Below are positions 19,145 to 62,187 of a DNA stretch of 64,000 nt, one piece after another (within the stretch, counting starts at the first letter, position 1; the number at the start of each line of letters is the position of its first letter). The notes beneath the pieces are model-generated. The model ran no database searches and was not told the DNA's origin. It worked only from the letters and a program-made list of their open reading frames with translations. The stretch comes from Agromyces archimandritae. Lineage in GTDB: Bacteria > Actinomycetota > Actinomycetes > Actinomycetales > Microbacteriaceae. The translations under genes and the position numbers were made by a program. The stretch is taken from positions 1,984,001 to 2,048,000 of the forward strand of contig NZ_CP071696.1 in assembly GCF_018024495.1 (NCBI RefSeq), written 5' to 3'.

Positions 19145-19232
19145 CTGCGCAATGCAGGAACGGAATCGTGTCGCGGGCGGTTCTGCCGCATGGGGCGGTA
19201 CGACACGCCGTGCGCGCTCCTGCATTGCGGAG
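19145..19232. repeat. family A palindromic element, copy A1 (forward)
   Basis: 88 bp. Outer arms CTGCGCAATGCAGGA / TCCTGCATTGCGGAG; inner GTGTCGCG and CGACAC half-arms around a CCGCATG core. Lies in the convergent gap between the LacI gene and the ATP-grasp gene. Confidence 0.9.
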
Positions 19233-19346
19233 GAGCGGACGCGCGAGGAAGCGCTGTGCCTCGGGCGGTGCGGCGGTGGGTGCGCGGGCGACCCGGGCGG
19301 TGCGGGCGGTGGATGCGCGGGCGACTCGGGCGGTGCAGCGCTTTTT

Positions 19347-19434
19347 CTGCGCAATGCAGGAACGGAATCGTGTCGCGGGCGGTTCTGCCGCATGGGGCGG
19401 TACGACACGCCGTGCGCACTCCTGCATTGCGCAG
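19347..19434. repeat. family A palindromic element, copy A2 (forward)
   Basis: 88 bp with perfect 15-bp outer arms CTGCGCAATGCAGGA / TCCTGCATTGCGCAG; nearly identical to A1 and A3. Confidence 0.9.
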
Positions 19435-19515
19435 GAGAGGGCGCGCGAGAGAGAGTGCTGTGCCTCGGGGGTGGGCGGTGGATGCGCGGGCGACCCGGGC
19501 GGCGCAGTGCTTTTT

Positions 19516-19603
19516 CTGCGCAATGCAGGAACGGAATCGTGTCGCGGGCGGTTCTGCCGCATGGGGCGGTGCGACACGCCGTGCGCACTCCTGCATTGCG
19601 GAG
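19516..19603. repeat. family A palindromic element, copy A3 (forward)
   Basis: 88 bp, third copy in the same convergent gap; the right arm ends TGCATTGCGGAG like A1. Spacers between the three copies are variants of GCGGGCGACCCGGGCGG-type sequence. Confidence 0.9.
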
Positions 19604-19640
19604 GAGCGGACGCGCGAGGAAGCGCTGTGCCTCGGGCGGT

Positions 19641-19813
19641 GCGGGCGGTGGGTGTGCGTGCGGCGCGGGTGGATGTGCGGGCGGTGGGTGTGCGTGCGGC
19701 GCGGGTGGATGCGCGGGCGGTGGGTGTGCGTGGATGCGCGGGCGACTCGGGCGGCGCGGGCGGTGGGTGTGCGTGGGGCGCGGGTGGATGCGCGGGCGGT
19801 GGGTGCGCGGCGA
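19641..19813. repeat. imperfect 36-bp tandem repeat
   Basis: Unit beginning GCGGGCGGTGGGTGTGCGTG recurs with a period near 36 bp and runs up to the stop codon of the ATP-grasp gene. Strongly G-rich on the plus strand. Together with A1-A3 it fills the 750-bp gap. Confidence 0.65.
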
Positions 19814-19814
19814 C

Positions 19815-20753
19815 TCAGGCGGCGCGGGCGGTGGATGCGCGGGCGAGGCCGCCGAGGAAGCGTGCGATCGCGGTCGCGGCGGGCAGCGCGACGGAGGCTT
19901 CGACGTCGGGGCTGTAGTTCGTGTTCGTGTTCACGTCGTACGGCACGGTGCGGCCGTCGACGGTTTCGAAGAACTCGACGCCGGCGATCTCGGCGCCCTG
20001 TGCGGCCAGGAACGTCTCGAGGCGGCGGATCAGCGGGTGCTCGGCCGTGATCTCCGGCCGCACCCGGAACAGCGGTTCGGCCGGCCCGTCGCCGGGCACC
20101 GCGCATGCCTCTGCGGGGCACAGTTCGAAGCCGGTCGACGTGTCCACGCGCACCGCGTAATGGAAGCGGCCGCCGATGAACTCGGCGCGGGTGACGAAGG
20201 GTTCGGGTGCGATGAGGAGTTCCTGCAGCAGCGTGATTCCGTCGAGCGGATGCTCGAGCAGTCCGGCATCCACTGCGGCGGCCAGCTCGTCGGCGCTCTC
20301 GAAACGCCGCACGCCGAGGCCCTTGCCGCCGCGGTTGTGCTTCGTGATGAAGGGGCCGTCGAAGGCGCGAGCCGCCTCGGCGAGCCCCGCGGTGCCGGCG
20401 ACCGCGATCGTGCGGGGCACGTCGAATCCGGCTGCGGCGAGCCGCGCGTACTGGCGCACCTTGCTGACCTCGAGTGCGGCGACCGGGCTGCCGTTCACCA
20501 CGCGCCGGCCCGCAGCCTCGGCCCAGGCGAGCACCGCCGAGGCCGTATCGAAGGCGTGCGGAACGCCGCGCGTGTGCGCCGAGGCGCTGAGCCGCGACCA
20601 GAACACGGCGTCGGCCGGGGCTTCGCCGAGCGGGATCGTGCGCTCGCCGAGATGCCACGGCTCGAGGCGTACGCCCTCGGCGGCGAAGGCGCGCTCGAAC
20701 GGCGGCAGCCAGTCGGCGTTGTCGTGCAGGACGATGACGGCGGGTTCGGTCAT
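19815..20753 (-). CDS. ATP-grasp enzyme of the RimK/glutathione-synthetase type, function unknown
   Basis: 312 aa. An N-terminal pre-ATP-grasp domain ('VIVLHDNADWLPPFERAFAAEGV', 'VFWSRLSASAHTRG') precedes an ATP-grasp fold. ATP-binding lysines lie in 'GPFITKHNRGGKGLGV', and Mg2+ ligands in 'GVEFFETVDGRTVPYDVNTNTNYS'. Such enzymes ligate a carboxylate to an amine or thiol through an acyl-phosphate. Substrates cannot be deduced and no carrier-peptide or peptidase gene is adjacent. ATG 20753 has AAAGAGG 6 nt upstream. The last codons fall in the G-rich tandem repeat, so the C-terminus ('LARASTARAA') may be recently altered. Confidence 0.8.
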   Translation of the reverse strand: MTEPAVIVLHDNADWLPPFERAFAAEGVRLEPWHLGERTIPLGEAPADAVFWSRLSASAHTRGVPHAFDTASAVLAWAEAAGRRVVNGSPVAALEVSKVRQYARLAAAGFDVPRTIAVAGTAGLAEAARAFDGPFITKHNRGGKGLGVRRFESADELAAAVDAGLLEHPLDGITLLQELLIAPEPFVTRAEFIGGRFHYAVRVDTSTGFELCPAEACAVPGDGPAEPLFRVRPEITAEHPLIRRLETFLAAQGAEIAGVEFFETVDGRTVPYDVNTNTNYSPDVEASVALPAATAIARFLGGLARASTARAA

Positions 20754-20894
20754 GCGGGCCTCTTTCTCGTGCGCTTCCAGCCTGCCCGCGCCGCCGGGGT
20801 GCGCTGCGGGATGTGACGAAGCGTGACCATGCTCGCACGGGCGCCTGGGCGAATGGATGCCGGCAGGGCGCCGTTGCGCGGGCATCGCCGCGGC

Positions 20895-21899
20895 CTACGC
20901 GCGCGGCGCCGCCGTCGACTCGCGCAGTTCGAGCCGCGGCTGGAACATGAGGTTGTGCCCGGGCGTCTCGCCCTCGATGAGGGCGTGCAGGCGTCGCCAG
21001 GATTCCGTGCCGAGTTCGCCGTGCGGGACGGATGCGGTCGTGAGCGACGGGGCGGTGAAGCGCGAGAAGGGGATGTCGTCGAATCCGGTCACGGAGATGT
21101 CGCCCGGCACGTTCGTGCCGGCTTCGGCCAGTCCGTTGACGAGCCCGATGGCGACGAGGTCGTTGAAGGCGAGGGCGGCGGTGGCACCGGTGTCGAGCAC
21201 GGCGCGGGCCGCGGCGAGGCCGTCTTCGGCGTGGACGCCTCCCGGCATCCGCTCGAGGCGCACATCGCCGGCTTCGCGTTCGAACTCGGCGAGGCCGGCG
21301 AGGCGGTGGGCGTTCGAGGCGCTGCCCGGCGGGCCTTCGAGGTAGGCGAGGTGCCGGTGGCCGAGGCCGTGCAGTTGCCGGGCGAGGGCCTGGATGCCGG
21401 AGCGGTAGTCGATGGAGAGCAGCGGCGCGTCGATGGGGGCGGTGGGGCGGTTGATGACGACGAGCGGGTGCAGCGAGGGCGCGAGGGCGGCGAGTTCGTC
21501 GTCGGGCATGCGCGGTGCGCAGAGCACGATCGAGTCGCAGCGGCGGCGTACTTCGGCGGCGAGTCCGGCTTCGTCGCCGGGGGATTCGGCGGAGTCGGCG
21601 ACGAGCACCCGGTATCCGTCGTGCGCGGCGGCTTTCGTGAGGCCGGCGAGCACGGCCTGGAAGGCGGGGTTCGCGAGGTCGGGCACGACGAAGGCGATGG
21701 TGCGGGTGCGGCCGAGCGCGAGGCTTCTGGCCAGGGGGCTGGGCACGTAGCCGAGTTCGGCGGCGGATGCCCTGACGCGCTCGGCGACGGCGGGCTCGCC
21801 CACGAATCGGCCGTTCATGACGCGCGAGACGGTCGCCTGCGAGACGCCGGCGTGCTCGGCGACCTCCGCGATCGTGGTGGAGGCTGATCGTCTGCCCAC
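20895..21899 (-). CDS. LacI-family repressor of the divergent Gfo/Idh gene
   Basis: 334 aa from GTG 21899, with AAGGGGA about 6 nt upstream. HTH: 'TTIAEVAEHAGVSQATVSRVMNGRFV'; hinge 'SPLARSLALGRT'. Effector domain segments: 'IAFVVPDLANPAFQAVLAGLTKAA', 'LAFNDLVAIGLVNGLAEAG', 'VTGFDDIPFSRFTAPSLTTASVP'. It is divergent from the oxidoreductase gene at 22083, and a perfect LacI-type palindrome lies in the shared 183-bp spacer. Ligand unknown, probably a sugar or inositol derivative. Confidence 0.88.
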   Translation of the reverse strand: MGRRSASTTIAEVAEHAGVSQATVSRVMNGRFVGEPAVAERVRASAAELGYVPSPLARSLALGRTRTIAFVVPDLANPAFQAVLAGLTKAAAHDGYRVLVADSAESPGDEAGLAAEVRRRCDSIVLCAPRMPDDELAALAPSLHPLVVINRPTAPIDAPLLSIDYRSGIQALARQLHGLGHRHLAYLEGPPGSASNAHRLAGLAEFEREAGDVRLERMPGGVHAEDGLAAARAVLDTGATAALAFNDLVAIGLVNGLAEAGTNVPGDISVTGFDDIPFSRFTAPSLTTASVPHGELGTESWRRLHALIEGETPGHNLMFQPRLELRESTAAPRA

Positions 21900-21951
21900 G
21901 GCGTTCCCCTTCTGCTCGGTCCACGGTACCGGCCGGATGCCGTCCGGGTCG

Positions 21952-21980
21952 TTGACGGAGCCGGTGCGCATCGCCATAAT
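21952..21980 (+). promoter_or_regulatory. promoter of the 22083 oxidoreductase gene
   Basis: -35 TTGACG (21952-21957), 17-nt spacer, -10 CATAAT (21975-21980). The expected start of transcription is near 21987. Confidence 0.8.
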
Positions 21981-21989
21981 CGGAATCGA

Positions 21990-22001
21990 GAAAGCGCTTT
22001 C
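21990..22001. promoter_or_regulatory. LacI-type operator GAAAGCGCTTTC
   Basis: Perfect 12-bp palindrome immediately after the predicted transcription start, the same geometry as in the rha promoter. Divergent LacI gene at 21899. Confidence 0.85.
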
Positions 22002-22082
22002 CCATGCACTGCGGGCACGGCACGGCACGGCACGCGGCGCACGCACCGCACCCGATCCGCCCGATCCACCCGAAGGAGCCGC

Positions 22083-23423
22083 ATGACCACCCGATACGCC
22101 CTCGTCGGCGCCGGACACCGAGCCCGCATGTACCTCGACGCCATCGCCGGCCCGCACGCCGACGTCGCCGAACTCGTCGCCTGGGCCGACCCGAACCCCG
22201 GCCGGCTCGACTGGTCCGAGGCGGCCCTGGGCGGCCGGCGCCCGCCGGCCCGCTTCGCCCCCGAAGCCCTCGCCGACGCCGTCCGGCGGCACCGCATCGA
22301 CCGCGTCATCGTCACCGCCCCCGACCACGCCCACGCCGGCCTCGTCGCCGCCGCCCTCGACGCCGGCGCCGACGCGATCGTCGAGAAGCCCCTCACCACG
22401 AGCGAGGCCGGCGTGCGCGAGATCGCGGACGCCGCCGAACGCACCGGCCGCGACGTCGTCGTCACCTTCAACTACCGGTACTCGCCCCGCAACTCTGCGC
22501 TGAAGCGCGTCATCGCCTCCGGAGAGATCGGCGAGGTCACCTCGGTGCACTTCGAATGGGTGCTCGACACTGCGCACGGCGCCGACTACTTCCGCCGCTG
22601 GCACCGTGAGAAGCAGAACTCCGGCGGCCTCCTGATCCACAAGTCGTCGCACCATTTCGACCTCGTCAACTGGTGGCTGGGCGACACGCCCGCGCGGGTC
22701 TTCGCGAGCGGCGGGCTGCGCTTCTACGGCGCCGACAACGCCCGCCGCCGCGGCCTCGGCGCCCGGCCGGAACGCGGATCCGTCGACTCGCCGCTGCGCG
22801 ACGCCTTCAGCCTCGACCTGCGCGAGGACCCGCAGCTGCGCGGCCTCTACTACGAGCAGGAGCACCACGACGGATACCTGCGCGATCGCGACGTCTTCGA
22901 CGAGGGCATCACGATCGAAGACAACCTCGCGCTCATCGTCGACTACGGGCGCGGCGCGAGCATGTCGTACTCCCTGAACGCGCATGCCCCGTGGGAGGGC
23001 TATACCGTCGCCGTCAACGGCACCGCCGGCCGCGCCGAGCTCTCGGTCGTCGAACGCGGGGCGGTCGCCGCGCGCGGGCCCGCCGTCGACCCGAGCGCGA
23101 AGCCCGAGGCGCGAGCGGATGCCGGCGGCGCCGTGCGACCGGCCGGCACCCGCCTCGTCGTGCAGCGCCACTTCGAGGAGGCCTGGCTCGTGCCGATCCC
23201 GACGGGTTCCGGCGCGCACGGCGGCGGGGATGCGGTCATGCTGCGCGAGCTCTTCGTCGGCGCCGGCGACGACCCGCTCGGCCGTGCCGCCGGCTGGCGC
23301 GACGGCGTGCGCTCGGTCGCGGTCGGCCTCGCCGGCAACCGTTCGCTCGAGACCGGCCGGGCGGTGGCCGTCGCCGACTTGGATCTCGGCACGGCGGTGC
23401 CGAGCGCCCGGCGCGCGGGCTGA
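22083..23423 (+). CDS. Gfo/Idh/MocA-family NAD(P)-dependent oxidoreductase
   Basis: 446 aa. N-terminal Rossmann fold 'YALVGAGHRARMYLDAI' with 'VIVTAPDHAHAGLVAAAL'. The EKP motif 'IVEKPLTTSEAG' carries the catalytic lysine, followed by the family's 'TFNYRYSPRNSALKRVI' and 'GGLLIHKSSHHFDLVNWWLG' (catalytic His). Members oxidise or reduce sugars, inositols or 3-keto-glycosides. ATG 22083 has GAAGGAG 6 nt upstream. An insertion around residues 335-360 contains Ala/Asp-rich GGATGCC-coded sequence. It is a single-gene unit under LacI control. Confidence 0.9.
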   Translation: MTTRYALVGAGHRARMYLDAIAGPHADVAELVAWADPNPGRLDWSEAALGGRRPPARFAPEALADAVRRHRIDRVIVTAPDHAHAGLVAAALDAGADAIVEKPLTTSEAGVREIADAAERTGRDVVVTFNYRYSPRNSALKRVIASGEIGEVTSVHFEWVLDTAHGADYFRRWHREKQNSGGLLIHKSSHHFDLVNWWLGDTPARVFASGGLRFYGADNARRRGLGARPERGSVDSPLRDAFSLDLREDPQLRGLYYEQEHHDGYLRDRDVFDEGITIEDNLALIVDYGRGASMSYSLNAHAPWEGYTVAVNGTAGRAELSVVERGAVAARGPAVDPSAKPEARADAGGAVRPAGTRLVVQRHFEEAWLVPIPTGSGAHGGGDAVMLRELFVGAGDDPLGRAAGWRDGVRSVAVGLAGNRSLETGRAVAVADLDLGTAVPSARRAG

Positions 23424-23477
23424 ACCCGCGCGCGGGCTGAACCCGGGAGCGCGGGCCGAGCCCGGCGCGCCCGGCGT
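23424..23477. terminator. GC hairpins between two convergent genes
   Basis: The 54-bp gap consists of CGCGCGGGCTGAACCCG (repeating the last bases of the preceding gene) and GCGGGCCGAGCCCGGCGC-type inverted repeats. Likely a bidirectional terminator. Confidence 0.45.
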
Positions 23478-24353
23478 TCAGCCCACAGCCGCCGCGAGCC
23501 GCGGCGCGACCGACGCCTCGAAGGCCTCGGCGGTGCGGCGTGCGACCTCGGACCAGGGCGAAGCCCAGACCGCCTCGTTGAAGATCTCGACCTCGATGTC
23601 GCCGGAGTATCCGGCATCCACCGCGGCCGTCGTCAGCGCCCCGATGTCGATCACGCCGTCGCCCGGGTAGTGGCGGCCGAGCAGCACGTCCGCCGGCAGC
23701 GGGGTGGCCCAGTCGCACACCTGGAAACTCGCGATGCGGCCCTCGCGACCGGCGCGTGCGATCTGCGCCCGCGCCTCCGGGTCCCACCAGATGTGGAAGG
23801 TGTCGACCGTGACGCCGACGACGTCTGCCGGGAACGGCGCGGCCAGGTCGAGCGCCTGCGCGAGCGTCGAGACGACGGCACGGTCGGAGGCGTACATCGG
23901 GTGCAGCGGTTCGACGGCGAGCGTGACCCCGGCGCCGGCCGCGTGCGGGGCGAGCTCGGCGAGGGCGTCCGCGACGCGGGCGCGGGCCCCGGGCAGGTCG
24001 CGGGATCCGCCGGGCAGGCCGCCGGCGACGAGCACGAGCACGGCGCGGGATCCGTCTGCGCCGGCGGCAGCGAGCGTGGCCGTTTCGTCGATGGCGCGCC
24101 GGTTCTCGTCGATGGATGCGCGGCGTTCGGGGCTCTCGGGCATCGTGAAGAAGCCCTGCCGGCAGAGGGTCGACAGGCGCAGCCCGGAGTCGGCGAAGCG
24201 TGCGGCGGCCTCGGCGAGGCCGATCGCGGCGACGGGTTCGCGCCACAGGCCGGCCGCCTCGTAGCCGGCGCCGGTCATGACGGCCAGCGATTCGGCGAAC
24301 GGTGCGTGACGAAGGGTGGCGACGTTCATCGACAGGCGCGGGTGGGTGCTCAT
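23478..24353 (-). CDS. sugar phosphate isomerase/epimerase-type TIM-barrel protein
   Basis: 291 aa, xylose isomerase-like (AP endonuclease 2) barrel. Metal-site segments: 'VTLAVEPLHPMYASDRAVV', 'VGVTVDTFHIWWDPE', 'FQVCDWATPLPADVLLGRHYPGDGVIDI' and 'GDIEVEIFNEAVW'. Start ATG overlaps the stop of the DUF993 gene (ATGA). As the third gene of a Gfo/Idh-DUF993-isomerase operon it probably isomerises or epimerises an oxidised sugar; the exact substrate is unknown. Confidence 0.88.
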   Translation of the reverse strand: MSTHPRLSMNVATLRHAPFAESLAVMTGAGYEAAGLWREPVAAIGLAEAAARFADSGLRLSTLCRQGFFTMPESPERRASIDENRRAIDETATLAAAGADGSRAVLVLVAGGLPGGSRDLPGARARVADALAELAPHAAGAGVTLAVEPLHPMYASDRAVVSTLAQALDLAAPFPADVVGVTVDTFHIWWDPEARAQIARAGREGRIASFQVCDWATPLPADVLLGRHYPGDGVIDIGALTTAAVDAGYSGDIEVEIFNEAVWASPWSEVARRTAEAFEASVAPRLAAAVG

Positions 24354-25645
24354 GCTCGGGCCTCCTCGGGTGCGGCCGCGGGCTGCGGGTCGGGTTCGGC
24401 GGCGGATGCTGCGGGCCGCGGTTCGGGCCGTGCGGCGGATGCCGCGGGGCGCCCGGGCGCGGCGGGCGCCGCACCGGCATCCACTCGCGCCTCGATGCCG
24501 TTCACCGCGAGCAGGGCATGCCAGCGGGCCGCGGCCAGTTCGGGTCGTTCGAGGGCGCCGGCCCCGTTCGCGAGCTCCACGATGCGCGACAGATGCGGCA
24601 GGCTGCGTGCCGTATGGAGCCCGCCGACGAGCTGGAACGCCGGCTGGTGCCCGTTCAGCCAGGCGAGGAAGGCGATGCCCGTCTTGTAGTGGAACGTCGG
24701 CGCGGCGAACACGTGCTGCGAGAGGGCCTCGGTGGGCCCGAGCACGGCCCGGAAGCCGGCTTCGTCGCCCGCGTCGAGGGCCCGGATCGCCGCCGAGGCG
24801 TTCGGCGCGAGGGCCGCGAAGGCGCCGAGCAGGGCGTCCGAATGCCCGTGCCCGTCGCCGGCGATGAGATCGACGTAGTGGAAGTCGTCGCCCGTGAACA
24901 TGCGGGAGGGCCCCGGCATCCGCCGCCGCACCGAGACCTCGGCGTCGGCGTCGAGCAGGCTCATCTTGACGCCCGCGACCCGCTCCGGCCGGCCGGCGAT
25001 GATGCCGAGCAGGGTGCCCGCGGCCTCGGCGGTGTCGGCCGATCCGAAGTATCCGGCGAGCTCGGGGTCGAACGCCGGCCCCAGCCAGTGCAGGATGACG
25101 GGCGCCGAGGCGCGGGCCAGCACGGCGTCGTAGACGCGGCGGTAGTCGTCGGCGGATGCCGCGGCGCGCGCGAGATGCCGGCTCGCCATGAGCACGACGC
25201 CGGCCCCGGCGTCTTCGGCGTGGTGCAGCTGCTCGGTGTAGGCGTCGACGATCGTGTCGAGGCCGGGGCGCTGCTCGTCGAGGTGGTCGGTGTTGACGCC
25301 GACGACGAGGCGGCCGCCGGCGGATGCGGCCTCGGCGGCGCTGCGCGCGATGAGCTCGCGGGTGGCGGCGGGGTCGAGGCCCATATTGCGCTGGGCGGTG
25401 TCCATGGCGTCGGCGACGCCGAGGCCCCACGACCAGATGTGGTGGCGGAACGCGAGCGTCGCGTCCCAGTCGATGTCGGCCGGCCGGCCGGGCGTGTTGT
25501 CGGCGTGCGCCTTCGGCACGACGTGGGCGGCGGCGAACGCCGTGCGGCTCGTGAGCGGATGCCGCGGGCGGGCGAACACGGGTGCTTCGCGAAGCTCCGC
25601 CGTACGACGGGCGCCGTCGGCGTCGAGCAGGGTGAGCGCGGTCAT
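24350..25645 (-). CDS. DUF993 protein (dihydrodipicolinate synthase-like aldolase family)
   Basis: 431 aa. It resembles the DUF993 family, predicted TIM-barrel aldolases related to DapA ('IDWDATLAFRHHIWSWGLGVADAMDTAQRNMGL', 'VVGVNTDHL', 'VILHWLGPAFDPEL', 'VAGVKMSLLDADAE' with a candidate Schiff-base lysine). The ATG overlaps the upstream oxidoreductase stop. The last ~45 residues are an Ala/Pro/Arg-rich tail coded by GGATGCC-like words and look expendable. Inferred role: cleaving an oxidised sugar acid made by the neighbouring enzymes. Confidence 0.82.
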   Translation of the reverse strand: MTALTLLDADGARRTAELREAPVFARPRHPLTSRTAFAAAHVVPKAHADNTPGRPADIDWDATLAFRHHIWSWGLGVADAMDTAQRNMGLDPAATRELIARSAAEAASAGGRLVVGVNTDHLDEQRPGLDTIVDAYTEQLHHAEDAGAGVVLMASRHLARAAASADDYRRVYDAVLARASAPVILHWLGPAFDPELAGYFGSADTAEAAGTLLGIIAGRPERVAGVKMSLLDADAEVSVRRRMPGPSRMFTGDDFHYVDLIAGDGHGHSDALLGAFAALAPNASAAIRALDAGDEAGFRAVLGPTEALSQHVFAAPTFHYKTGIAFLAWLNGHQPAFQLVGGLHTARSLPHLSRIVELANGAGALERPELAAARWHALLAVNGIEARVDAGAAPAAPGRPAASAARPEPRPAASAAEPDPQPAAAPEEARA

Positions 25646-26916
25646 CGGGCGCCCTCGGGTGCGGGGGCGGATGCGCCGGTGGATGCCGTGGCTCGGCCGG
25701 TCGGGTGCGCCCGGGCATCCACCGGCGCCGCGGCATCCACCGAGGTGTGCGTCGCGGCATCCGCACCCGTGACGAGCGGCAGCTCGACCCGCCGGCCCTC
25801 GGCCGAGGAACGCAGCCCCGCCTCGGCGAGCAGCACCCCGCGCGCGCCGGCGAGGAAGTCGTAGCGGTGCGGGGCGTCTTCGACGACGTGGCGGATGAAC
25901 TCCTCCCACTGCGTCTTGAACCCGTTTGCGAAGTCGTCGTTGCCGGGGGATTCGATCCAGTCGGCGGCATAGTCGTGCGCGTCGGCGAGGTCGGGGTTCC
26001 ACACGGGTTTCGGGGTGGCGTTGCGCGGCTGGATCCTGCAGCCGTGCAGGCCGACGACGGCCGAACCGTGCGTGCCGTCGACCTGGAACTCGACGAGCTC
26101 GTCGCGGTTCACCCGCGTCGTCCAGCTCGAATTGAGCTGCGCGGTGATGCCGCCGGCCAGCTCGAAGACCGCGTAGGCGGCGTCGTCGGCCGTCGCCGCA
26201 TACGGCCGGCCGGCCTCGTCGACGCGCTCGGGGATCTCGGTCACGGCGCGGGCGTAGACCGACTCGACGCGGCCGAAGAGGTTCTCGAGCACGTAGTTCC
26301 AGTGCGGGAACATGTCGACGACGATGCCGCCGCCGTCTTCGGCGCGGTAGTTCCAGCTGGGCCGCTGGGCCCGCTGCCAGTCGCCCTCGAACACCCAGTA
26401 GCCGAACTCGCCGCGCACGCTCAGGATCCGCCCGAAGAACCCGCTGTCGATCAGTCGGCGCAGCTTCAGCAGCCCCGGGAGGTACAGCTTGTCGTGCACG
26501 ACGCCGTTCTTCACCCCGGCGTCGCGGGCGAGGCGGGCGAGCTCGAGCGACTCGTCGAACGACTCGGCGATCGGCTTCTCGGTGTAGATCGCCTTGCCGG
26601 CGGCGATCGCCCGGCGGATCGCGCCGGCCCGCGCCCGCGTGACCTGGAAGTCTGCGTAGATCGCCCACCGCTCGTCGGAGAGGGCCGCGTCGAGGTCGCT
26701 CGTGTAGTGCTCGAGCCCGTGCCGTGCGGCGATGTCGGCGAGCTTGGCTTCGCTGCGGCCGACGAGCAGCGGTTCGAGCTGCACGCGGGTCTCGCCGTCG
26801 CCGAGGAGCACGCCGCCCTGCTCGCGGATCGCGAGGATCGAGCGCACGAGGTGCTGCCGGTAGCCCATGCGCCCGGAGACGCCGTTCATGATGATGCCGA
26901 GGGTCTGCTCTGCCAC
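25642..26916 (-). CDS. Gfo/Idh/MocA-family oxidoreductase (first gene of operon)
   Basis: 424 aa from GTG 26916, with AGAGGA about 6 nt upstream. N-terminal 'TLGIIMNGVSGRMGYRQHLVRSI' is the atypical Rossmann start of this subgroup. Catalytic 'YTEKPIAESFDESL' and 'NGVVHDKLYLPGLLKLRRL' follow, then 'GGGIVVDMFPHWNYVLENLFG' with the catalytic His. The last ~40 residues are a GGATGCC-coded Ala/Ser/Thr/Asp tail. It is coupled by ATGA to the DUF993 gene. A LacI-type palindrome lies 44 bp upstream. Confidence 0.9.
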   Translation of the reverse strand: MAEQTLGIIMNGVSGRMGYRQHLVRSILAIREQGGVLLGDGETRVQLEPLLVGRSEAKLADIAARHGLEHYTSDLDAALSDERWAIYADFQVTRARAGAIRRAIAAGKAIYTEKPIAESFDESLELARLARDAGVKNGVVHDKLYLPGLLKLRRLIDSGFFGRILSVRGEFGYWVFEGDWQRAQRPSWNYRAEDGGGIVVDMFPHWNYVLENLFGRVESVYARAVTEIPERVDEAGRPYAATADDAAYAVFELAGGITAQLNSSWTTRVNRDELVEFQVDGTHGSAVVGLHGCRIQPRNATPKPVWNPDLADAHDYAADWIESPGNDDFANGFKTQWEEFIRHVVEDAPHRYDFLAGARGVLLAEAGLRSSAEGRRVELPLVTGADAATHTSVDAAAPVDARAHPTGRATASTGASAPAPEGAR

Positions 26917-26959
26917 GGGGGTCCTCTTCGCTGGGGTGGATGCGGTCGCGCCCGGGTCT

Positions 26960-26975
26960 GGGAAAGCGCTTACCC
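26960..26975. promoter_or_regulatory. LacI-type operator GGGAAAGCGCTTACCC
   Basis: 16-bp near-palindrome (one mismatched pair) just upstream of the Gfo/Idh-DUF993-isomerase operon. Same core as the site at 27769, which lies before the divergent LacI gene. Confidence 0.75.
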
Positions 26976-27009
26976 AGGCGTTTCCGAGTGTGCCACGCCG
27001 CTGCACCGC

Positions 27010-27230
27010 CGCGCAAGGGTGCGGCCGGGCGCCGGGGCTGGGGGCCGGCGCCGGGGGCGGGGGCCTGGGGCCGGTGCCGGGTGTCGGGGGCCGGGGCCGG
27101 GTGCCGGGGGACCGCTCGCCGGGTGCCGGGGGCCGGGGCCGGGTGCCGGGGACCGCTCGCCGGGTGCCGGGGGCCGGGGTCCGGGTGCCGGGGGCCGGGT
27201 GCCGGGGACCGCTCGCCGGGCGCCGGGTGT
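27010..27230. repeat. GC-rich minisatellite
   Basis: GGGTGCCGGGGGCCGGGG and GGACCGCTCGCCGGGTGCC blocks alternate with a period near 40 bp. No coding potential seen. Confidence 0.6.
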
Positions 27231-27297
27231 GGATGCCGCCCGGTCACCCGATCCACTCACCGCTCGGCCCTGGCTGTCGGCCTACCTGTCCCGTGTT

Positions 27298-27384
27298 CTG
27301 CGCAATGCAGGAACGCGCCCGGCGTGTCGCGCCCGCCATGCGGGAGAACGCCCCGCGACACGGGTGCGCTCCTGCATTGCGCAG
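27298..27384. repeat. family A palindromic element, copy A4 (reverse)
   Basis: 87 bp; outer arms CTGCGCAATGCAGGA / TCCTGCATTGCGCAG. The inner GTGTCGCG / CGCGACAC pair is perfect here. Internal sequence aligns with the reverse complement of A1-A3. Confidence 0.9.
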
Positions 27385-27482
27385 AACCGAGTGGGGGCTG
27401 GGCGATGCGGCGGATGCCGCGGGTGTGGATGCCGCGGATGTGGATGCCGGCCGATCACCCGATCCACTCGCCGCAGCCTCCC

Positions 27483-27569
27483 CTGCGCAATGCAGGAACG
27501 TACCCGGCGTGTCGCGCCCGCCATGCGGGAGAACGCCCCGCGACACGGGTGCGTTCCTGCATTGCGCAG
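27483..27569. repeat. family A palindromic element, copy A5 (reverse)
   Basis: 87 bp, near-identical to A4 and same orientation. Both are preceded by a GATCACCCGATCCACTC-type segment. Confidence 0.9.
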
Positions 27570-27645
27570 GGAAGCAGCGGCTCGGCGGGCGGGGAGAGCA
27601 GGTGGGGAGAGCGGGTGGGGTGGGGCGAGCGGGTGGGGCGGGGAC

Positions 27646-27760
27646 CGGATGCCGGTGCGAACGGATGCCGGTGCGAACGGATGCCGGTGCGTGTGGATGC
27701 CGGGGCGCGCGGATGCCGGTGCGTGTGGATGCCGGGGCGCGCGGCATCCACACCCGCACG
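27646..27760. repeat. 16-18-bp GGATGCCGGTGCG tandem repeats
   Basis: Six successive units of GGATGCCGGTGCGAAC / GGATGCCGGGGCGCGC type, ending in a GGCATCCACACC inverse copy. It is the densest cluster of the GGATGCC word in the window. Confidence 0.75.
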
Positions 27761-29120: not shown

Positions 29121-29207
29121 CTGCGCAATGCAGGAGTGCGTTCGTGTCGCGGGGGCTTCTGCCGTGTGGAGGGTGCGACACGCCGTGCGTGTTCCTGCAT
29201 TGCGCAG
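29121..29207. repeat. family A palindromic element, copy A6 (forward)
   Basis: 87 bp with perfect 15-bp outer arms, preceded by GGCATCCACACCCTGATTCC, a lead-in also seen before A7 and A8. Confidence 0.9.
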
Positions 29208-29288: not shown

Positions 29289-29376
29289 CTGCGCAATGCA
29301 GGAGTGCATTCGTGTCGCGGGGGCTTCTGCCGCATGGTGGGGTGCGACACGCCGTGCGTGTTCCTGCATTGCGCAG
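29289..29376. repeat. family A palindromic element, copy A7 (forward)
   Basis: 88 bp, 168 bp after A6. It lies 20 bp before the insertion sequence. Confidence 0.9.
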
Positions 29377-29396: not shown

Positions 29397-30854
29397 GGCT
29401 CTTCGGACATCCGGTGGGGGTCATGGGGTGAGGCCGCCGGCGGCGAGGAGCATGCGGAGGCGGTAGTTGTGGCGGTTGCGGAAGCCTCTGGCGAGGCGGC
29501 GGTGGAGTTCGATGATGCCGTTCACGGCCTCGGTGCCGCCGTTGGATGAGCGGCCGGTGGTGAAGTAGGCCAGGAACGCGTCGCGCCACCGTCTCAGGGT
29601 GCGGCCCAAGCGGGCGATCTCGGGGATCGGGCAGGTGTGGAACGTGTCGACGACGGTGACGGCGATCCGTCGTCCTTGGGCCAGATCCTTCGCGTGGTAG
29701 GCGGCGCGGAGTTGCTGTGCACACTGCCAGGCGATGAAGACTTCCTCGTGGGCGGGGTCGGCGTTGATCGCGGCGACCAGACGTGCTCGTTGCTTGTCGG
29801 TGAGGTGCTCGGCCCCGGCGCGGAGGATGGTCTGGATCCCGTAGAGCGGGTCGCCCTTCCGGCCGCGATGGCCGAGGGTGTCCTGTTGGACCCGGCGGCG
29901 GACCTCGTCGACGGCGGCGGTAGCGAGCTTCACAACGTGGAACGCGTCCAGCACGGCGATCGCGTCGTGGAGCTTGTCGTCGATGGCGGCCTTGTAGCCG
30001 GCGAAGGGATCCAAGGCGGCCACTTTCACGTTCCGACGGAAGTCCTCGCCGCGTTGGTCCAGCCAGGCCTTGTAGACGCGCCCGGAACGGCCGGGCACGA
30101 GGTCCAGCAGCCTGGCGTGCGTCTTGCCGTGCTCGTCGCGGGTCAGGTCGACCATCCCGGTCAACTCCTTCCGGGCCGCGCATGCGGGATCGACGTGGTG
30201 CCAGATGTGTTCATCGACACCGAGGGTGCTGACCCCGTCGAACCGGGACTCGTCGGCGGCAAGCTGCTCGAGTTCGGGTTCGACGGCCCGCCAGAGCGTC
30301 TTCCACGACGTGTCGAGCTGACGAGCCAAGCCTTGGACGGTGGCGTGTTCGCGACGCAACTGCCCGATCGCCCAGACCACGGCACGGGCCGTGATCGATC
30401 CGCGTGGGGCGACCAACGACGGGAGCTGTTCCATGAACGTCTTCCGGCCGCAGTCGGTGTCCTCGCAGCGGAAGACGCGTTGCCGCCATACCAGGCGCAC
30501 CCGGTCAGCGCCAGGCACGTCCCGCAGCACCCGGCGTCGGCGGCCACGACCGGTCGCGATCACCCCGCACGATGGGCACCCGGCAGGTCCCGGCGGGCTG
30601 GAGACCGTGACCGTCAGCAGGCCGTCACGGCGATCGACATGCTCGACGTGGACCCCGTCCAGGCCCAGCAGCAGGTCACAACGGTCACAGGGATCAGCAG
30701 CCGGACGCGCGTCAACGCGCCCCGAAGTAAGGTGAAGCACGTCGAGGTCCTCGGTCGGAATCAGGTGGTTAGCGCTTCTGATCCTCGGGGACCTCGACCC
30801 CTACACGCCAGTCACGCCCCGGACACCTCACCCCCACCAGATCTCCGAAGAGCC
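29397..30854 (-). mobile_element. ISL3-family insertion sequence, copy 1
   Basis: 1458 bp. Ends are imperfect 25-bp inverted repeats (23 of 25 match): left GGCTCTTCGGACATCCGGTG..., right (inverse) GGCTCTTCGGAGATCTGGTG.... Flanked by a perfect 8-bp duplication. Encodes one transposase on the minus strand. It inserted between family A copies A7 and A8. Confidence 0.95.
29421..30740 (-). CDS. ISL3-family transposase, copy 1
   Basis: 439 aa. N-terminal zinc-finger-like cysteines ('CDRCD', 'CPSCG', 'CEDTDCGRKTF'), an HTH region, then a DDE core with Asp176 in 'LGVDEHIW', Asp244 in 'AALDPFAGY' and the Glu in 'GGTEAVNGIIE'. Residues 186-190 read ACAAR where copy 2 reads RMRGP. The DNA has lost one G (GCGGGA instead of GCGGGGA) and gained one C (CTTCCGGG instead of CTTCGGG) 20 bp away, so a second indel restored the frame. 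Whether the altered loop next to the first catalytic Asp leaves the enzyme active is unknown. Confidence 0.92.
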   Translation of the reverse strand: MLHLTSGRVDARPAADPCDRCDLLLGLDGVHVEHVDRRDGLLTVTVSSPPGPAGCPSCGVIATGRGRRRRVLRDVPGADRVRLVWRQRVFRCEDTDCGRKTFMEQLPSLVAPRGSITARAVVWAIGQLRREHATVQGLARQLDTSWKTLWRAVEPELEQLAADESRFDGVSTLGVDEHIWHHVDPACAARKELTGMVDLTRDEHGKTHARLLDLVPGRSGRVYKAWLDQRGEDFRRNVKVAALDPFAGYKAAIDDKLHDAIAVLDAFHVVKLATAAVDEVRRRVQQDTLGHRGRKGDPLYGIQTILRAGAEHLTDKQRARLVAAINADPAHEEVFIAWQCAQQLRAAYHAKDLAQGRRIAVTVVDTFHTCPIPEIARLGRTLRRWRDAFLAYFTTGRSSNGGTEAVNGIIELHRRLARGFRNRHNYRLRMLLAAGGLTP

Positions 30855-30959: not shown

Positions 30960-31047
30960 CTGCGCAATGCAGGAGAGCATTCGTGTCGCGGGGCCTTCTG
31001 CCGCATGGTGGGGTGCGACACGCCGTGCGCGTTCCTGCATTGCGCAA
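30960..31047. repeat. family A palindromic element, copy A8 (forward)
   Basis: 88 bp. Separated from A6 and A7 by the insertion sequence; the right arm ends TGCGCAAA instead of TGCGCAG. It lies 58 bp before the enolase-family stop. Confidence 0.88.
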
Positions 31048-42061: not shown

Positions 42062-42116
42062 GAGGTCGCGCAAAGCGTCGCTTCGACCGTCTGCGAAGCG
42101 CAGTTCGCGTCACCTC
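42062..42116. repeat. family B palindromic element, copy B4
   Basis: 55 bp starting GAGGTCGCGCAAAGCG and ending TTCGCGTCACCTC, just after the permease stop. The left arm has diverged (GGTCGCGCAA for GGTGACGCGAA). Confidence 0.7.
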
Positions 42117-54305: not shown

Positions 54306-54310
54306 TTAGC

Positions 54311-55767
54311 GGCTCTTCGGACATCCGGTGGGGGTCATGGGGTGAGGCCGCCGGCGGCGAGGAGCATGCGGAGGCGGTAGTTGTGGCGGTTGCGGAAGCC
54401 TCTGGCGAGGCGGCGGTGGAGTTCGATGATGCCGTTCACGGCCTCGGTGCCGCCGTTGGATGAGCGGCCGGTGGTGAAGTAGGCCAGGAACGCGTCGCGC
54501 CACCGTCTCAGGGTGCGGCCCAAGCGGGCGATCTCGGGGATCGGGCAGGTGTGGAACGTGTCGACGACGGTGACGGCGATCCGTCGTCCTTGGGCCAGAT
54601 CCTTCGCGTGGTAGGCGGCGCGGAGTTGCTGTGCACACTGCCAGGCGATGAAGACTTCCTCGTGGGCGGGGTCGGCGTTGATCGCGGCGACCAGACGTGC
54701 TCGTTGCTTGTCGGTGAGGTGCTCGGCCCCGGCGCGGAGGATGGTCTGGATCCCGTAGAGCGGGTCGCCCTTCCGGCCGCGATGGCCGAGGGTGTCCTGT
54801 TGGACCCGGCGGCGGACCTCGTCGACGGCGGCGGTAGCGAGCTTCACAACGTGGAACGCGTCCAGCACGGCGATCGCGTCGTGGAGCTTGTCGTCGATGG
54901 CGGCCTTGTAGCCGGCGAAGGGATCCAAGGCGGCCACTTTCACGTTCCGACGGAAGTCCTCGCCGCGTTGGTCCAGCCAGGCCTTGTAGACGCGCCCGGA
55001 ACGGCCGGGCACGAGGTCCAGCAGCCTGGCGTGCGTCTTGCCGTGCTCGTCGCGGGTCAGGTCGACCATCCCGGTCAACTCCTTCGGGCCGCGCATGCGG
55101 GATCGACGTGGTGCCAGATGTGTTCATCGACACCGAGGGTGCTGACCCCGTCGAACCGGGACTCGTCGGCGGCAAGCTGCTCGAGTTCGGGTTCGACGGC
55201 CCGCCAGAGCGTCTTCCACGACGTGTCGAGCTGACGAGCCAAGCCTTGGACGGTGGCGTGTTCGCGACGCAACTGCCCGATCGCCCAGACCACGGCACGG
55301 GCCGTGATCGATCCGCGTGGGGCGACCAACGACGGGAGCTGTTCCATGAACGTCTTCCGGCCGCAGTCGGTGTCCTCGCAGCGGAAGACGCGTTGCCGCC
55401 ATACCAGGCGCACCCGGTCAGCGCCAGGCACGTCCCGCAGCACCCGGCGTCGGCGGCCACGACCGGTCGCGATCACCCCGCACGATGGGCACCCGGCAGG
55501 TCCCGGCGGGCTGGAGACCGTGACCGTCAGCAGGCCGTCACGGCGATCGACATGCTCGACGTGGACCCCGTCCAGGCCCAGCAGCAGGTCACAACGGTCA
55601 CAGGGATCAGCAGCCGGACGCGCGTCAACGCGCCCCGAAGTAAGGTGAAGCACGTCGAGGTCCTCGGTCGGAATCAGGTGGTTAGCGCTTCTGATCCTCG
55701 GGGACCTCGACCCCTACACGCCAGTCACGCCCCGGACACCTCACCCCCACCAGATCTCCGAAGAGCC
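54311..55767 (-). mobile_element. ISL3-family insertion sequence, copy 3 (defective)
   Basis: 1457 bp, one base shorter than copies 1 and 2. Right flank is CGGTTAGC (55768-55775); the 5 bp before its left end are TTAGC, i.e. the last five of that octamer, suggesting its original duplication was CGGTTAGC and was cut into by the neighbouring copy. Confidence 0.92.
54335..55653 (-). pseudogene. ISL3-family transposase, copy 3, frameshifted
   Basis: Loss of one G (GCGGGA for GCGGGGA, near 55098) splits the gene into an N-terminal 192-aa frame (55653-55075, ending 'DPACAARRS') and a C-terminal 253-aa frame that can restart at ATG 55096 ('MRGPKELTGMVD...'). The break lies 10 residues after the first catalytic Asp. 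Programmed frameshifting is unlikely because the intact copy needs none. Confidence 0.88.
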
Positions 55768-59683: not shown

Positions 59684-60751
59684 ATGCCCGCCGAATCCGG
59701 CCGCATCATCCATGCGGACTCCCTCGAGGCGCTGCGCGCGCTCGGCGCCGGGTCGGTCACCGTCGCCTACCTGCATCCGCCCGCGAACCCGCGACGCGAC
59801 GCCCCGCTCGCCGCGCCCGCACGCGGGGCGACGGATGCCGTGTCGCGCCTGCGCGGCGGCACCGCCGACGAGGTGCGCGCCGCCCTCGCCCGCTACGACG
59901 ACCGCTTCGACGACTACTGGGGCTTCCTCGAACCCCGCATCGCCGAAGTGTGGCGCCTGCTCGCCGCCGACGGAACCCTCTACCTCCGCCTCGACGCGCG
60001 CGAAGCGCACTACGCGAAGGTCATGCTCGATGCGCTCGTGGGCCGCGACGGCTTCATGAACGAGATCGTCTGGGTCACCGGTTTCGGCGAGCCCGCGACC
60101 GCCGCCTGGCCGCGCCGTCACGACACGATCCTCGTCTACGCGCGCGACCCGAAACGCGTCTGGTTCGACGCGTCGGCCGTCGATCGTGAGCCCTACATGG
60201 CTCCGGGGCTGGTCACGCCCGAAAAAGCTGCGCTCGGAAAGCTGCCTACCGATGTCTGGTGGCACACGATCGTCGGCGGCGACCGCGGGCAGGCCGCCGG
60301 CTCGGCCCGGGGTGCGGATGCTTCGGGTACGGATGCCGCGCGCGGTGCGACCGCGGAGTCGGCCGCGGGCGCGAGTGTCGCCGGTGCCGACGGCGCGAGT
60401 GCCGCCGCTCCCGACCCGGGTGCGGATGCCGCGGGCGGAGCTCCGGCCGCGCACGGCGACCGCACACCCGAGGGGGTCGTGCGCCGCATCCTGCAGGCGT
60501 CCAGCCGCGAAGGCGATCTCGTGCTCGATCCGTTCGCCGGCTCCGGAACGACCGGGGTCGTCGCCGCGACCCTCGGCCGCCGCTTCGTGCTGATCGAGGA
60601 CGACGACGCATCGGTCGCCGTCATGCGCGCACGCTTCGCCGAGCTCGCCGGCGTCGAGTTCGACGACGGGCCGGGGCGCGCTCCGGCATCCACCCCCGAC
60701 CCGGTCGTATCCACCACAGCCGTACCCGCCCCCGAGGAGCCCACCGTATGA
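59684..60751 (+). CDS. DNA methyltransferase homologue with degenerate catalytic motif
   Basis: 355 aa. Similar to N4/N6 (beta-class) DNA methyltransferases: 'RIIHADSLEALRALGAGSVTVAYLHPPANP', 'YWGFLEPRIAEVWRLLAADGTLYLRLDAREAHY', and at the C-terminus 'SSREGDLVLDPFAGSGTTGVVAATLGRRFVLIE', the SAM-binding motif I. The catalytic motif IV, normally DPPY/DPPF, reads HPPA (residues 31-34), so activity is doubtful. A ~55-residue insertion of Ala, Asp, Gly and Ser (~residues 207-260) is coded by GGATGC-type words. No restriction endonuclease is adjacent. ATGA overlap with the next gene. Confidence 0.78.
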   Translation: MPAESGRIIHADSLEALRALGAGSVTVAYLHPPANPRRDAPLAAPARGATDAVSRLRGGTADEVRAALARYDDRFDDYWGFLEPRIAEVWRLLAADGTLYLRLDAREAHYAKVMLDALVGRDGFMNEIVWVTGFGEPATAAWPRRHDTILVYARDPKRVWFDASAVDREPYMAPGLVTPEKAALGKLPTDVWWHTIVGGDRGQAAGSARGADASGTDAARGATAESAAGASVAGADGASAAAPDPGADAAGGAPAAHGDRTPEGVVRRILQASSREGDLVLDPFAGSGTTGVVAATLGRRFVLIEDDDASVAVMRARFAELAGVEFDDGPGRAPASTPDPVVSTTAVPAPEEPTV

Positions 60752-61668
60752 AGTTCCGCATCTTCACCGAACCGCAGCAGGGCGCGAGCTATGCGCAGCA
60801 GCTCGCGATGGCGCGGCGCGCCGAGGCGCTCGGGTTCGACGCGTTCTTCCGCAGCGATCACCTGCTCGCGATGGGCGGCGACGGGATGCCGGGGCCGAGC
60901 GATTCCTGGGTCACGCTCGGCGCGATCGCGCGCGAGACCGAGACGATCCGGCTGGGCACGCTCGTCACGAGTGCGACGTTCCGGCACCCGGGCCTGCTCG
61001 CGGTGCAGGTCGCGCAGGTCGACGAGATGAGCGGCGGCCGCGTCGAGTTCGGCCTCGGCACGGGCTGGTTCGAGGCCGAGCACCGCGCGTACGGCATCCC
61101 GTTCCCGCCCAAGCGGTTCGGGATGCTCGAGGAGCAGCTTGCGGTCGTCACCGGGTTGTGGGGCACGCCGGCCGGCGAGCGGTTCTCGTTCGCCGGCGAG
61201 CACTACCTGCTCGAGGACTCGCCGGCGCTGCCGAAGCCCGTGCAGCAGCCGATCCCGCTGATCGTCGGCGGTGCGGGCAAGCAGCGCACGCCGGCGCTCG
61301 CGGCCCGGTTCGCGAGCGAGTTCAACGTGCCGTTCCGCTCCGACGCCGAGATCGCCGAGCTCTTCGGGCTCGTCCGGCAGGCCGCAGTGGATGCCGGACG
61401 CGACCCCGCATCCCTCGCCTACACGGCCGCGCTGACGACCACCGTCGGCGCGAGCGAGGCCGAGTACGCCCGCCGCGCCGACCGCATCGGCCGCGACGCC
61501 GCGGAACTCCGCCGTACCGGCATCGGCGGCACCCCCGCCGAGGCCGTCGACCGCATCGGCGGCCTCGCCGACATCGGGGTCGAGACCGTCTACCTGCAGG
61601 TGCTCGACTTCGACGACCTCGAATTGCTCGACCTGATCGCCGCCGAGGTCGTGCCGGCGTTCCGGTAG
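60748..61668 (+). CDS. LLM-class F420-dependent oxidoreductase
   Basis: 306 aa, luciferase-like TIM barrel: 'AQQLAMARRAEALGFDAFFRSDHLLAMGG', 'ETIRLGTLVTSATFRHPGLLAVQVAQVDEMSGGRVEFGLGTGWFEAEHRAYG', 'QPIPLIVGGAGKQRTPALAARFASEFN' and 'VYLQVLDFDDLELLDLIAAEVVPAFR' (each a segment of the TIGR03560-like F420 subgroup). Probably uses reduced F420 to reduce or oxidise an unknown small molecule. ATG overlaps the methyltransferase-like gene (ATGA), with GAGGAG upstream. Confidence 0.88.
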   Translation: MKFRIFTEPQQGASYAQQLAMARRAEALGFDAFFRSDHLLAMGGDGMPGPSDSWVTLGAIARETETIRLGTLVTSATFRHPGLLAVQVAQVDEMSGGRVEFGLGTGWFEAEHRAYGIPFPPKRFGMLEEQLAVVTGLWGTPAGERFSFAGEHYLLEDSPALPKPVQQPIPLIVGGAGKQRTPALAARFASEFNVPFRSDAEIAELFGLVRQAAVDAGRDPASLAYTAALTTTVGASEAEYARRADRIGRDAAELRRTGIGGTPAEAVDRIGGLADIGVETVYLQVLDFDDLELLDLIAAEVVPAFR

Positions 61669-61711
61669 CCGCGCGCGGCTCCCGCCCCCGCCGCTCGCTC
61701 CCGCCTCGCGT

Positions 61712-61811
61712 GCTGGCTCGCTCCTGCTCCTCGTGCGCTGGCTCGCTCCCGTTCCTCGCGCGCTGGCTCGCTCCTGTTCCTCGTGCGCTGGCTCGCTCCT
61801 GCTCCTCGCGC
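61712..61811. repeat. 25-bp tandem repeat, four copies
   Basis: GCTGGCTCGCTCCTGCTCCT-type unit with an exact 25-bp period (61712, 61737, 61762, 61787) just after the F420-enzyme stop. No open frame of interest. Confidence 0.85.
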
Positions 61812-61885
61812 GCCCGGCTCCTTGCTCCCTCCTCGCGCTCTCTCCTCACGTTCGTCGCCCCGCCGACTGCTGAGCCACCTGTCCT

Positions 61886-61972
61886 CTGCGCAATGCAGGA
61901 GTGCGCACGGCGTGTCGCGCTGCTCATGCGGCGGAACGCCCCGCGACACGCGCGCGGTCCTGCATTGCGCAG
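61886..61972. repeat. family A palindromic element, copy A9 (reverse)
   Basis: 87 bp, perfect 15-bp outer arms and GTGTCGCG / CGCGACAC inner arms; convergent gap between the F420-enzyme gene and the LacI gene. Confidence 0.9.
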
Positions 61973-62100
61973 GGGGAGGGTGAGCTCTGCGCCGCAGCCA
62001 CGTGGTTCGCGCCCCGGCATCCACTCGGCGCAGCGGGCTGGCCCCGGGCATCCACGCCACCCCGTTCATCGCTCCGCAGACCTCCGACCCGCGTCCTCCT

Positions 62101-62187
62101 CTGCGCAATGCAGGAGTGCGCACGGCGTGTCGCGCTGCTCATGCGGCAGAACGCCCCGCGACACGCGCGCGGTCCTGCATTGCGCAG
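62101..62187. repeat. family A palindromic element, copy A10 (reverse)
   Basis: 87 bp, almost identical to A9 and 215 bp after its start. Confidence 0.9.

Follow-up and report, generated by a model that had tools for sequence, protein, structure and literature searches.

The window, a 64,000-nucleotide stretch of the Agromyces archimandritae chromosome, carries ten copies of a nested palindrome of 87-88 bp, which we refer to as family A. The initial annotation had reported ten palindromes of about 88 bp at these sites, and all of them were found. Each copy was recovered by arm matches, by scripted pairing and by a covariance model:

19145..19232, plus strand, family A element (array of three)
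19347..19434, plus strand, family A element
19516..19603, plus strand, family A element
27298..27384, minus strand, family A element (array of two in a divergent gap)
27483..27569, minus strand, family A element
29121..29207, plus strand, family A element (array of three, subsequently interrupted by an ISL3 element)
29289..29376, plus strand, family A element
29397..30854, minus strand, ISL3-family insertion sequence between two copies of a family A array (25-bp terminal inverted repeats; not part of the system)
30960..31047, plus strand, family A element
61886..61972, minus strand, family A element (array of two)
62101..62187, minus strand, family A element

Family A is an 88-bp inverted doublet with the outer arm CTGCGCAATGCAGGA and the inner arm CGTGTCGC. 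Three 3' arms (19218-19232, 19589-19603 and 31033-31047) contain one mismatch each. With up to three mismatches allowed, the arms match at 21 places in the window; 100 shuffles gave 2.3 such matches on average and never more than 7. The ISL3 insertion is bordered by an 8-bp duplication, AGAAAAGG, at 29389-29396 and 30855-30862. No Rfam family matched positions 18900-31500, which hold eight of the ten copies, at the gathering score, and plasmid records held no match to positions 29100-29400.

Copies are present far beyond the window. In the genome that holds it (G000; the other G-numbers denote the genomes compared) we count 69 complete family A copies, a number on which scripted pairing in fetched stretches and the whole-genome covariance model agree. 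The first match of the model beyond these copies had an E value of 5.3; the model scored 150 of 10,702 first-look candidates, so that strongly decayed copies could be missed. The arm pattern with at most two mismatches gave 73 forward and 71 reverse matches, compared to 0 and 0 in a reversed control, and the consensus of 51 copies starts with CTGC and ends with GCAG. Copies form head-to-tail arrays of up to five. The shared orientation noted inside the groups of the window holds genome-wide, in 14 of 14 arrays (copies within 600 bp). Forty-seven of 48 sites are intergenic, and the 48th overlaps the end of a predicted ORF. Of the 47 intergenic sites 20 lie in convergent gaps, whereas 33 of the 249 remaining gaps of the stretches covered are convergent (Fisher p 1.1e-5); 7 of the 47 are divergent, as is the gap that holds the copies at 27298 and 27483. 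The convergent excess claimed for the window is thus borne out across the genome; the figure of eight in ten copies given for the window itself is seven by the gene calls and becomes eight once the ISL3 insertion is disregarded.

One gene outside the window is associated with the family:

G000:C1:2290722-2291576, minus strand, family A nuclease gene between two inverted family A copies

The upstream one of these copies is 186 bp away from the gene, and the second lies downstream. The encoded protein carries AbiEi_4 and DUF559 domains: a DNA-binding region resembling AbiEi antitoxins, with a match to the AbiEi fold, is fused to a C-terminal DUF559 nuclease whose fold is that of Vsr and homing endonucleases. 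The nuclease has the EDxHD/Vsr-type catalytic fold, as judged among the PDB chains listed by the structure search, and residues E194, D221, E231, D233, H237 and D246 are invariant in 111 homologues.

Among 60 Agromyces genomes an ortholog scored above 500 bits in four (G000, G069, G015 and G005) and at most 169 bits in the others, using a model trained on the four positive genomes. The locus is syntenic in all four species that have the gene, and in each an inverted pair of copies encloses the gene. These four genomes are also the richest in element matches (74, 71, 42 and 29, followed by 19, 12 and 10), a correspondence that ignores phylogeny. The other genes found between closely spaced copies in G000 and its relatives are varied (regulators, transporters, an ISL3 transposase), and across species only the nuclease recurs. 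G002, G004 and G060 have family A repeats too, with no cognate nuclease beside them. Arms were perfect in 7 of 30 cases in G015, which has the gene, and in 6 of 12 in G060, which lacks it; arm wear therefore does not track the nuclease gene cleanly. In G002, which has no ortholog, a lone worn element lies right behind the permease gene where the four other genomes have the nuclease unit. No trace of the nuclease was found in that 7-kb stretch, and the element is probably a relic of the unit. Of 93 elements in relatives, 16 have an ortholog on one flank or both in common with a site in G000, and agreement on both flanks is limited to the nuclease locus and a single G002 site (2458198 with G002:1477236); the 93 are those among the matches listed that lie inside fetched stretches, one listed G005 copy being left out and one G004 copy used. 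The small number of shared sites is no proof of turnover.

The window itself encodes a second, distant nuclease of this type (DUF559 at 21.8 bits, cut-off 20.6), with a different palindrome on its flanks:

3579..3633, plus strand, second-family palindrome (GAGGTGACGCGA type), left of the gene
3764..4690, plus strand, second, distant DUF559 nuclease gene
4795..4849, plus strand, second-family palindrome, right of the gene
4879..4933, plus strand, second-family palindrome, right of the gene
42062..42116, minus strand, further copy of the second-family palindrome, away from the gene

Matched palindromes flank both sides of 17 of 30 Agromyces nuclease loci and of 7 of 25 loci in other genera. The same arrangement was seen at 8 of 311 control genes, a set in which a few genes with a DUF559 signature were skipped and not subtracted, and in 0 of 90 shuffles; a separate first control with somewhat different scoring comprised 220 of 329 genes, 11 with a score of at most 2. 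By the flanking test, 13 of the 30 loci in the genus and 18 of the 25 in other genera have no matched pair. Nor do L253-L256, four loci from other Microbacteriaceae records. At the A. terreus locus the flanking test misses a pair, and the covariance model detects both flanking copies. Palindrome similarity tracks nuclease similarity over 27 loci (Mantel r 0.67, 0 of 10,000 permutations). For another family, family B, dispersed copies beyond the flanking pair were predicted beforehand and were present in five of six named genomes; G075 has the family B nuclease and the flanking pair only, and G033 and G076 have family B repeats without an adjacent cognate nuclease. In families other than A the relative orientation of the flanking palindromes is often ambiguous. 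The DUF559 nuclease family occurs in 131 of 248 genomes of this actinobacterial order, and the record names among the matches listed are DUF559 or 'very-short-patch-repair endonuclease' only.

The 88-letter palindromes of this soil bacterium thus appear to belong to one DNA-cutting enzyme. We consider it probable, if well short of certain, that family A belongs to a two-part system, its dispersed repeat being the inverted doublet and its other part one gene for an AbiEi-like/DUF559 nuclease, and we infer that the nuclease spreads the repeats. Such a nuclease would recognise the palindrome of its own family by the outer arms, which would be the family-specific signal, and may cut or nick there. 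Repair or recombination could then copy the element into new intergenic sites, comparable to the role supposed for RAYT transposases in the case of REPINs. Copies would persist where they do least harm and would therefore be found in convergent gaps.

The comparison with REPINs was already suggested by the initial annotation. Three reports (PMC2817692, PMC3116915, PMC3733652) describe RAYT genes as flanked by two inverted repeats, the enzyme as not multiplied and each paralog as having its own repeat family. As far as these descriptions go, family A resembles REP/REPIN-RAYT systems (REPtrons) on each count: its dispersed extragenic palindromes are always inverted doublets, as REPINs are, its single enzyme gene lies between two inverted copies, and distinct enzyme paralogs have distinct repeat families. 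The comparison stands as an analogy and fails as membership. In place of a Y1 transposase, family A has a nuclease that combines the Vsr fold with an AbiEi-like region, and a search for the Y1/RAYT transposase (PF01797) had no match in G000 and was positive in 5 of 14 control genomes. The consensus lacks the GTAG tetranucleotide at either end, and the family is actinobacterial with 69 copies, compared to the usual more than 100 for REPs. In our analysis the best reading is a REPIN/RAYT-like system that would be built on an unrelated nuclease. The enzyme also differs from the Vsr endonuclease and from I-Bth0305I, which we take to be a homing endonuclease of the EDxHD family, in its fusion to an AbiEi-like region and in the palindromes on its flanks, and no intron or intein was seen. 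Unlike AbiEi antitoxins the protein is fused to a nuclease, and inspection of the locus by eye recognised no partner toxin gene beside it.

Could the AbiEi-like region instead be a regulator whose operators, at its own gene and at others, are the palindromes, while the nuclease domain acts elsewhere? The AbiEi_4 domain, the AbiEi fold match and the copy upstream of the gene would fit such a regulon, and co-variation of operator and regulator would also be expected. We nevertheless regard this as unlikely, as the paired loci have a second copy downstream of the gene, the 20 convergent sites lie where no promoter is expected and far outnumber the divergent ones, and copies form head-to-tail arrays of up to five.

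The distribution along the chromosome raises another possibility. The origin-proximal half holds 41 of 44 sites in G000, 32 of 39 in G069 and 17 of 23 in G005; this bias stands unexplained and is not predicted by the two-part reading. Together with the near-invariant arms it would suit a chromosome-organising site, at which a nucleoid or segregation protein binds the palindromes and to which the nuclease is linked secondarily. This is improbable: 29 of 60 sister genomes have no family A match at E <= 1, unlike what is expected of an essential site, and the different palindromes around paralogous nucleases are left unexplained. BLAST orientations first hinted at a polar signal that switches at the origin, but counted by site 24 are oriented with replication, 17 against and 3 are mixed, which is not significant.

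We hold it equally improbable that the nuclease is a passenger, a cargo or defence gene between transposon ends, represented by the dispersed palindromes, that is moved by another recombinase. AbiEi-type and DUF559 proteins can serve in defence or repair, and the unit does have transposon-like inverted ends. One Vsr-like case of such a factor has been described (PMC12907096). However, the palindrome follows the nuclease clade, the family A gene has kept a single locus across four species, unlike the dispersed elements, and the ends lack direct repeats.

Bidirectional terminators, spread by recombination and selected as RNA hairpins between convergent genes, are more doubtful still. The convergent excess and the very stable predicted hairpins of the ten window copies (-50 to -67 kcal/mol) would agree with a terminator role, which the initial annotation had also proposed. 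It is nevertheless unsupported because 0 of 138 element ends in G000 have four or more T in the next eight bases and purines predominate in the 3' flank of both strands; many sister species also lack the element. The description of matched arms with variable loops is accurate, but selection on structure is not apparent inside G000, where the outer arms are nearly invariant and the rare arm changes are mostly uncompensated. Compensation is confined to comparisons between species, in which both arms change together and coherently per species.

Insertion into the centre of older hairpins was considered and rejected, as the two outside flanks of one copy pair no better with each other than with the flanks of other copies (of 2000 permutations, 252 in G000, 257 in G005, 1234 in G069, 602 in G015, 987 in G060 and 1545 in G002 reached the observed sum).

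A classic MITE of a DDE transposon is the least credible reading: terminal inverted repeats and dispersion are in its favour, and family A shares short non-coding palindromes in many copies with MITEs and with Rickettsia or TIR-type palindromic repeats, but direct repeats of at least 6 bp were present at 0 of 48, 0 of 41 and 0 of 23 copies in G000, G069 and G005, with 4-bp matches near expectation and no target duplication, nearly all G000 arm matches belong to the 69 doublets with no autonomous element or matching DDE element among them, and the ISL3 element among the copies has unrelated ends.

Returning to the two-part system, the palindromes near one nuclease and the sister enzymes that often have palindromes of their own together suggest a hitherto undescribed type of genome repeat, tethered to an enzyme. 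Judged by title and abstract, no open-access paper among the matches listed connects DUF559 or Vsr-like nucleases with palindromic repeats. A bolder proposal, to which we give rather less than even credence, is that selfish palindromic elements form a large class in Actinobacteria, with every family spread by its own AbiEi-Vsr/EDxHD nuclease. Instead of transposase chemistry, a break at or near the palindrome would lead host repair to copy the element in a form of dispersed homing, and the outer arms would be a rapidly changing address to which the DNA-binding region is matched. With such an address, several nuclease-palindrome pairs could share a genome without interfering with one another.

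Dispersed palindromes are a common feature of bacterial genomes, and those families for which maintenance is best understood are linked to transposases. Here a DUF559 nuclease family, unrelated to transposases, is often paired with its own palindromes, whose sequences differ by nuclease clade. If our reading is true, the REPIN-RAYT arrangement arose a second time with a different chemistry, and poorly understood genes would gain a target sequence accessible to experiment. The many enzyme-target pairs that occur naturally would also make the upkeep of bacterial palindromic repeats a testable question.

The window occupies positions 1,984,001 to 2,048,000 of a single source contig of 3,453,307 bases. 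All ten copies of family A that the initial annotation had placed there were confirmed at their positions, and the whole Agromyces archimandritae genome carries 69. Solitary arms are scarce in this genome, with 73 forward and 71 reverse arm matches (at most 2 mismatches) against 69 doublets carrying both outer arms. Rfam models gave no match in window positions 18900-31500, and plasmid records gave none to window positions 29100-29400.

Family A consensus (87-88 bp), in order: a 15-bp outer arm, a variable linker, the inner arm CGTGTCGC, a core that usually contains CCGCATGG, the inner arm GCGACACG, CCG, a linker and the outer arm
Window 29397-30854: insertion sequence of the ISL3 family, located within the array 29121/29289/30960 and bordered by an 8-bp duplication, AGAAAAGG
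Window 3764-4690: distant DUF559 gene with its own flanking palindrome GAGGTGACGCGA

With gene positions taken from a codon-usage gene caller, 47 of 48 family A sites in A. archimandritae are intergenic. Convergent gaps account for 20 of these 47; for the remaining gaps of the stretches that contain the sites the figure is 33 of 249 (p 1.1e-5), or 12 of 88 once gaps shorter than 120 bp are set aside (p 2.7e-4). Because the ISL3 element divides the array 29121/29289/30960, all three copies belong to one former convergent gap. Each of 14 arrays keeps one orientation. Taking dnaA (1.714 Mb) as the origin, the origin-proximal half holds 41 of 44 sites in A. archimandritae; in the related genomes G069, G005 and G002 it holds 32/39, 17/23 and 4/7, respectively. 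This bias is strong in the first three genomes. Orientation relative to replication showed no significant trend among the A. archimandritae sites (24 with, 17 against, 3 mixed).

Other repeats were seen in the window. Two facing ISL3-type ends at 54281-55096, 5 bp apart and with a 25-bp terminal repeat identical to that at 29397, adjoin a second ISL3 transposase gene (54335-55096) and are possibly two abutting insertion sequences. Directly past the last family A array lies another repeated palindrome of the GGGAGATCGGCACTCC type (62269-62390), and a 62-bp palindrome outside family A, with arms GGACGCAAATGCAGGGT / ACCCTGCATTTGCGTCC, is found at 12153-12214.

Among the A. archimandritae copies, 10 of the 15 base pairs formed by the outer arms are without any variation, the remaining changes are mainly one-sided, and no covariation measure exceeds its shuffles. 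From species to species, the arms differ coherently:

A. archimandritae, typical arm CTGCGCAATGCAGGA
G069, typical arm GTACGCAATTCAGGT
G005, typical arm GTTCGCAATTCAGGT
G002, typical arm CTGCGCAATGCAGGT

In 35 chosen sequences from six genomes, double-change cells, which count sequences rather than events, numbered 60 against 23.7 ± 3.8 in shuffles, and the number of pairs showing double change was not unusual (6 versus 5.1 shuffled). Since copies are alike within a genome and change coherently between species, the constraint is on sequence plus symmetry, common to the copies of one genome. A constraint of this type points to a recogniser acting in trans or to continual replacement, and not to many hairpins kept up independently.

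Outside the window, a gene with an AbiEi-like region and a DUF559 (Vsr-like) domain lies between two inverted family A copies. Its ortholog scores above 500 bits in exactly four of 60 Agromyces genomes and at most 169 bits in all others, using a model trained on those same four. These are also the four genomes richest in family A matches (at least 74, at least 71, 42 and 29, both strands together), followed by G002 (19), G004 (12) and G060 (10); 29 genomes have none. With genomes taken as independent and phylogeny ignored, the two fours would coincide by chance once in 487,635. G002 has a solitary worn copy at the nuclease locus, the gene being absent. Over arm positions 4-15, 135/138 arms are perfect in A. 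archimandritae, 58/82 in G069, 25/46 in G005 and 3/14 in G002, where they are worn. A simple rule of arm wear after gene loss is contradicted by G015, which has the gene (7/30 perfect), and G060, which lacks it (6/12).

The pairing of nuclease and palindrome is conserved and recurs with different sequences. We analyzed the best AbiEi-DUF559 locus per genome in 30 of the 55 Agromyces genomes that have a match, counting arms as matched at a score of at most 2. Palindromes with matching arms on both sides were found at 17 of 30 loci, in about eight arm families, compared with 8 of 311 control genes (Fisher 4e-15); seven of these eight controls are due to dispersed repeats, either family A or another family (CTCGGCGTCA, G005). 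The G015 locus was negative in this test and has two diverged flanking copies by covariance model. Within A. archimandritae, a CGGAGATCGC pair flanks the paralog at 3,399,250, the matched-arm test gave no pair for the paralog at 1,087,317, and the GAGGTGACGCGA palindrome has one further copy at 42062 and no other within the 365 kb examined. AbiEi-DUF559 proteins occur in 131 of 248 genomes of the order. Best-scoring loci, one per genome and besides the source's own (4 Agromyces, 25 other genera), gave matched pairs in 7/29, all among the 25 non-Agromyces loci, with new arm sequences and spread over four tool-defined families (f1, f3, f9, f12); shuffled flanks gave 0/90, and the difference from the 8/311 controls is significant (Fisher 6e-5). 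Across 27 loci, palindrome likeness tracks nuclease likeness (Mantel r 0.67, 0/10,000 permutations), the median relative nuclease score being 0.59 for same-arm pairs and 0.20 for others. A further palindromic family, TCTCGGCGTCA/TGACGCCGAGA, was seen at G005 loci L190 and L199, where its neighbours are a LysR gene and a flavodoxin/MarR pair and no nuclease lies next to it in these stretches.

For family B (GCGGATATACGATC), a palindrome flanking paralogous nucleases, we had predicted before the search that multiple copies would be confined to the six genomes in which it flanks the nuclease. Exact copies are present in all six (25, 10, 8, 7, 5 and 2), one or two per genome being contributed by the flanking pair by construction; beyond that pair, G075 has no dispersed copy and each of the other five has at least three. 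The predicted confinement to these six failed in part, as among the other 54 genomes G062 has 5 copies, G033 4, G076 2, four genomes 1 and 47 none. G062 has a nuclease with an in-frame stop between two family B copies; no nuclease stands beside the G033 and G076 copies among the matches listed. A reversed-pattern control gave 0. Family B is likewise in excess in convergent gaps (16 of 37 intergenic copies versus 28 of 198 gaps, p 1.3e-4), and 4 of 41 copies overlap predicted ORFs. By eye, the interiors of families A and B have a CACGCCG / CGGCGTG-like motif in common and differ in their outer arms, as if the nuclease family had held one common contact and altered the other.

Readings of the repeats as regulon, nucleoid, passenger or terminator sequences each cover some of these features but miss the combination of two-sided palindromes, convergent gaps, presence pattern and paralog series. 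We favour a route in which the AbiEi-like region would recognise the palindrome, the Vsr-like domain would cleave DNA and repair would spread the element. No target duplications were found at family A copies and no Y1 transposase was detected in A. archimandritae; break and repair fits both results and is not proven by them.

Family A works similarly to the closest known system, the REPtron (REP/REPIN repeats plus a RAYT tyrosine transposase gene), but the enzyme and the head motif that define a REPtron are absent here, as tests for both showed, so that the family A system is not a REPtron. Functional work on a DUF559 protein describes a Vsr-like role in Caulobacter (PMC12907096). Neither part of the family A system is homologous to the REP-RAYT parts, and searches of the open-access literature brought up no repeat family that is linked to such a nuclease.
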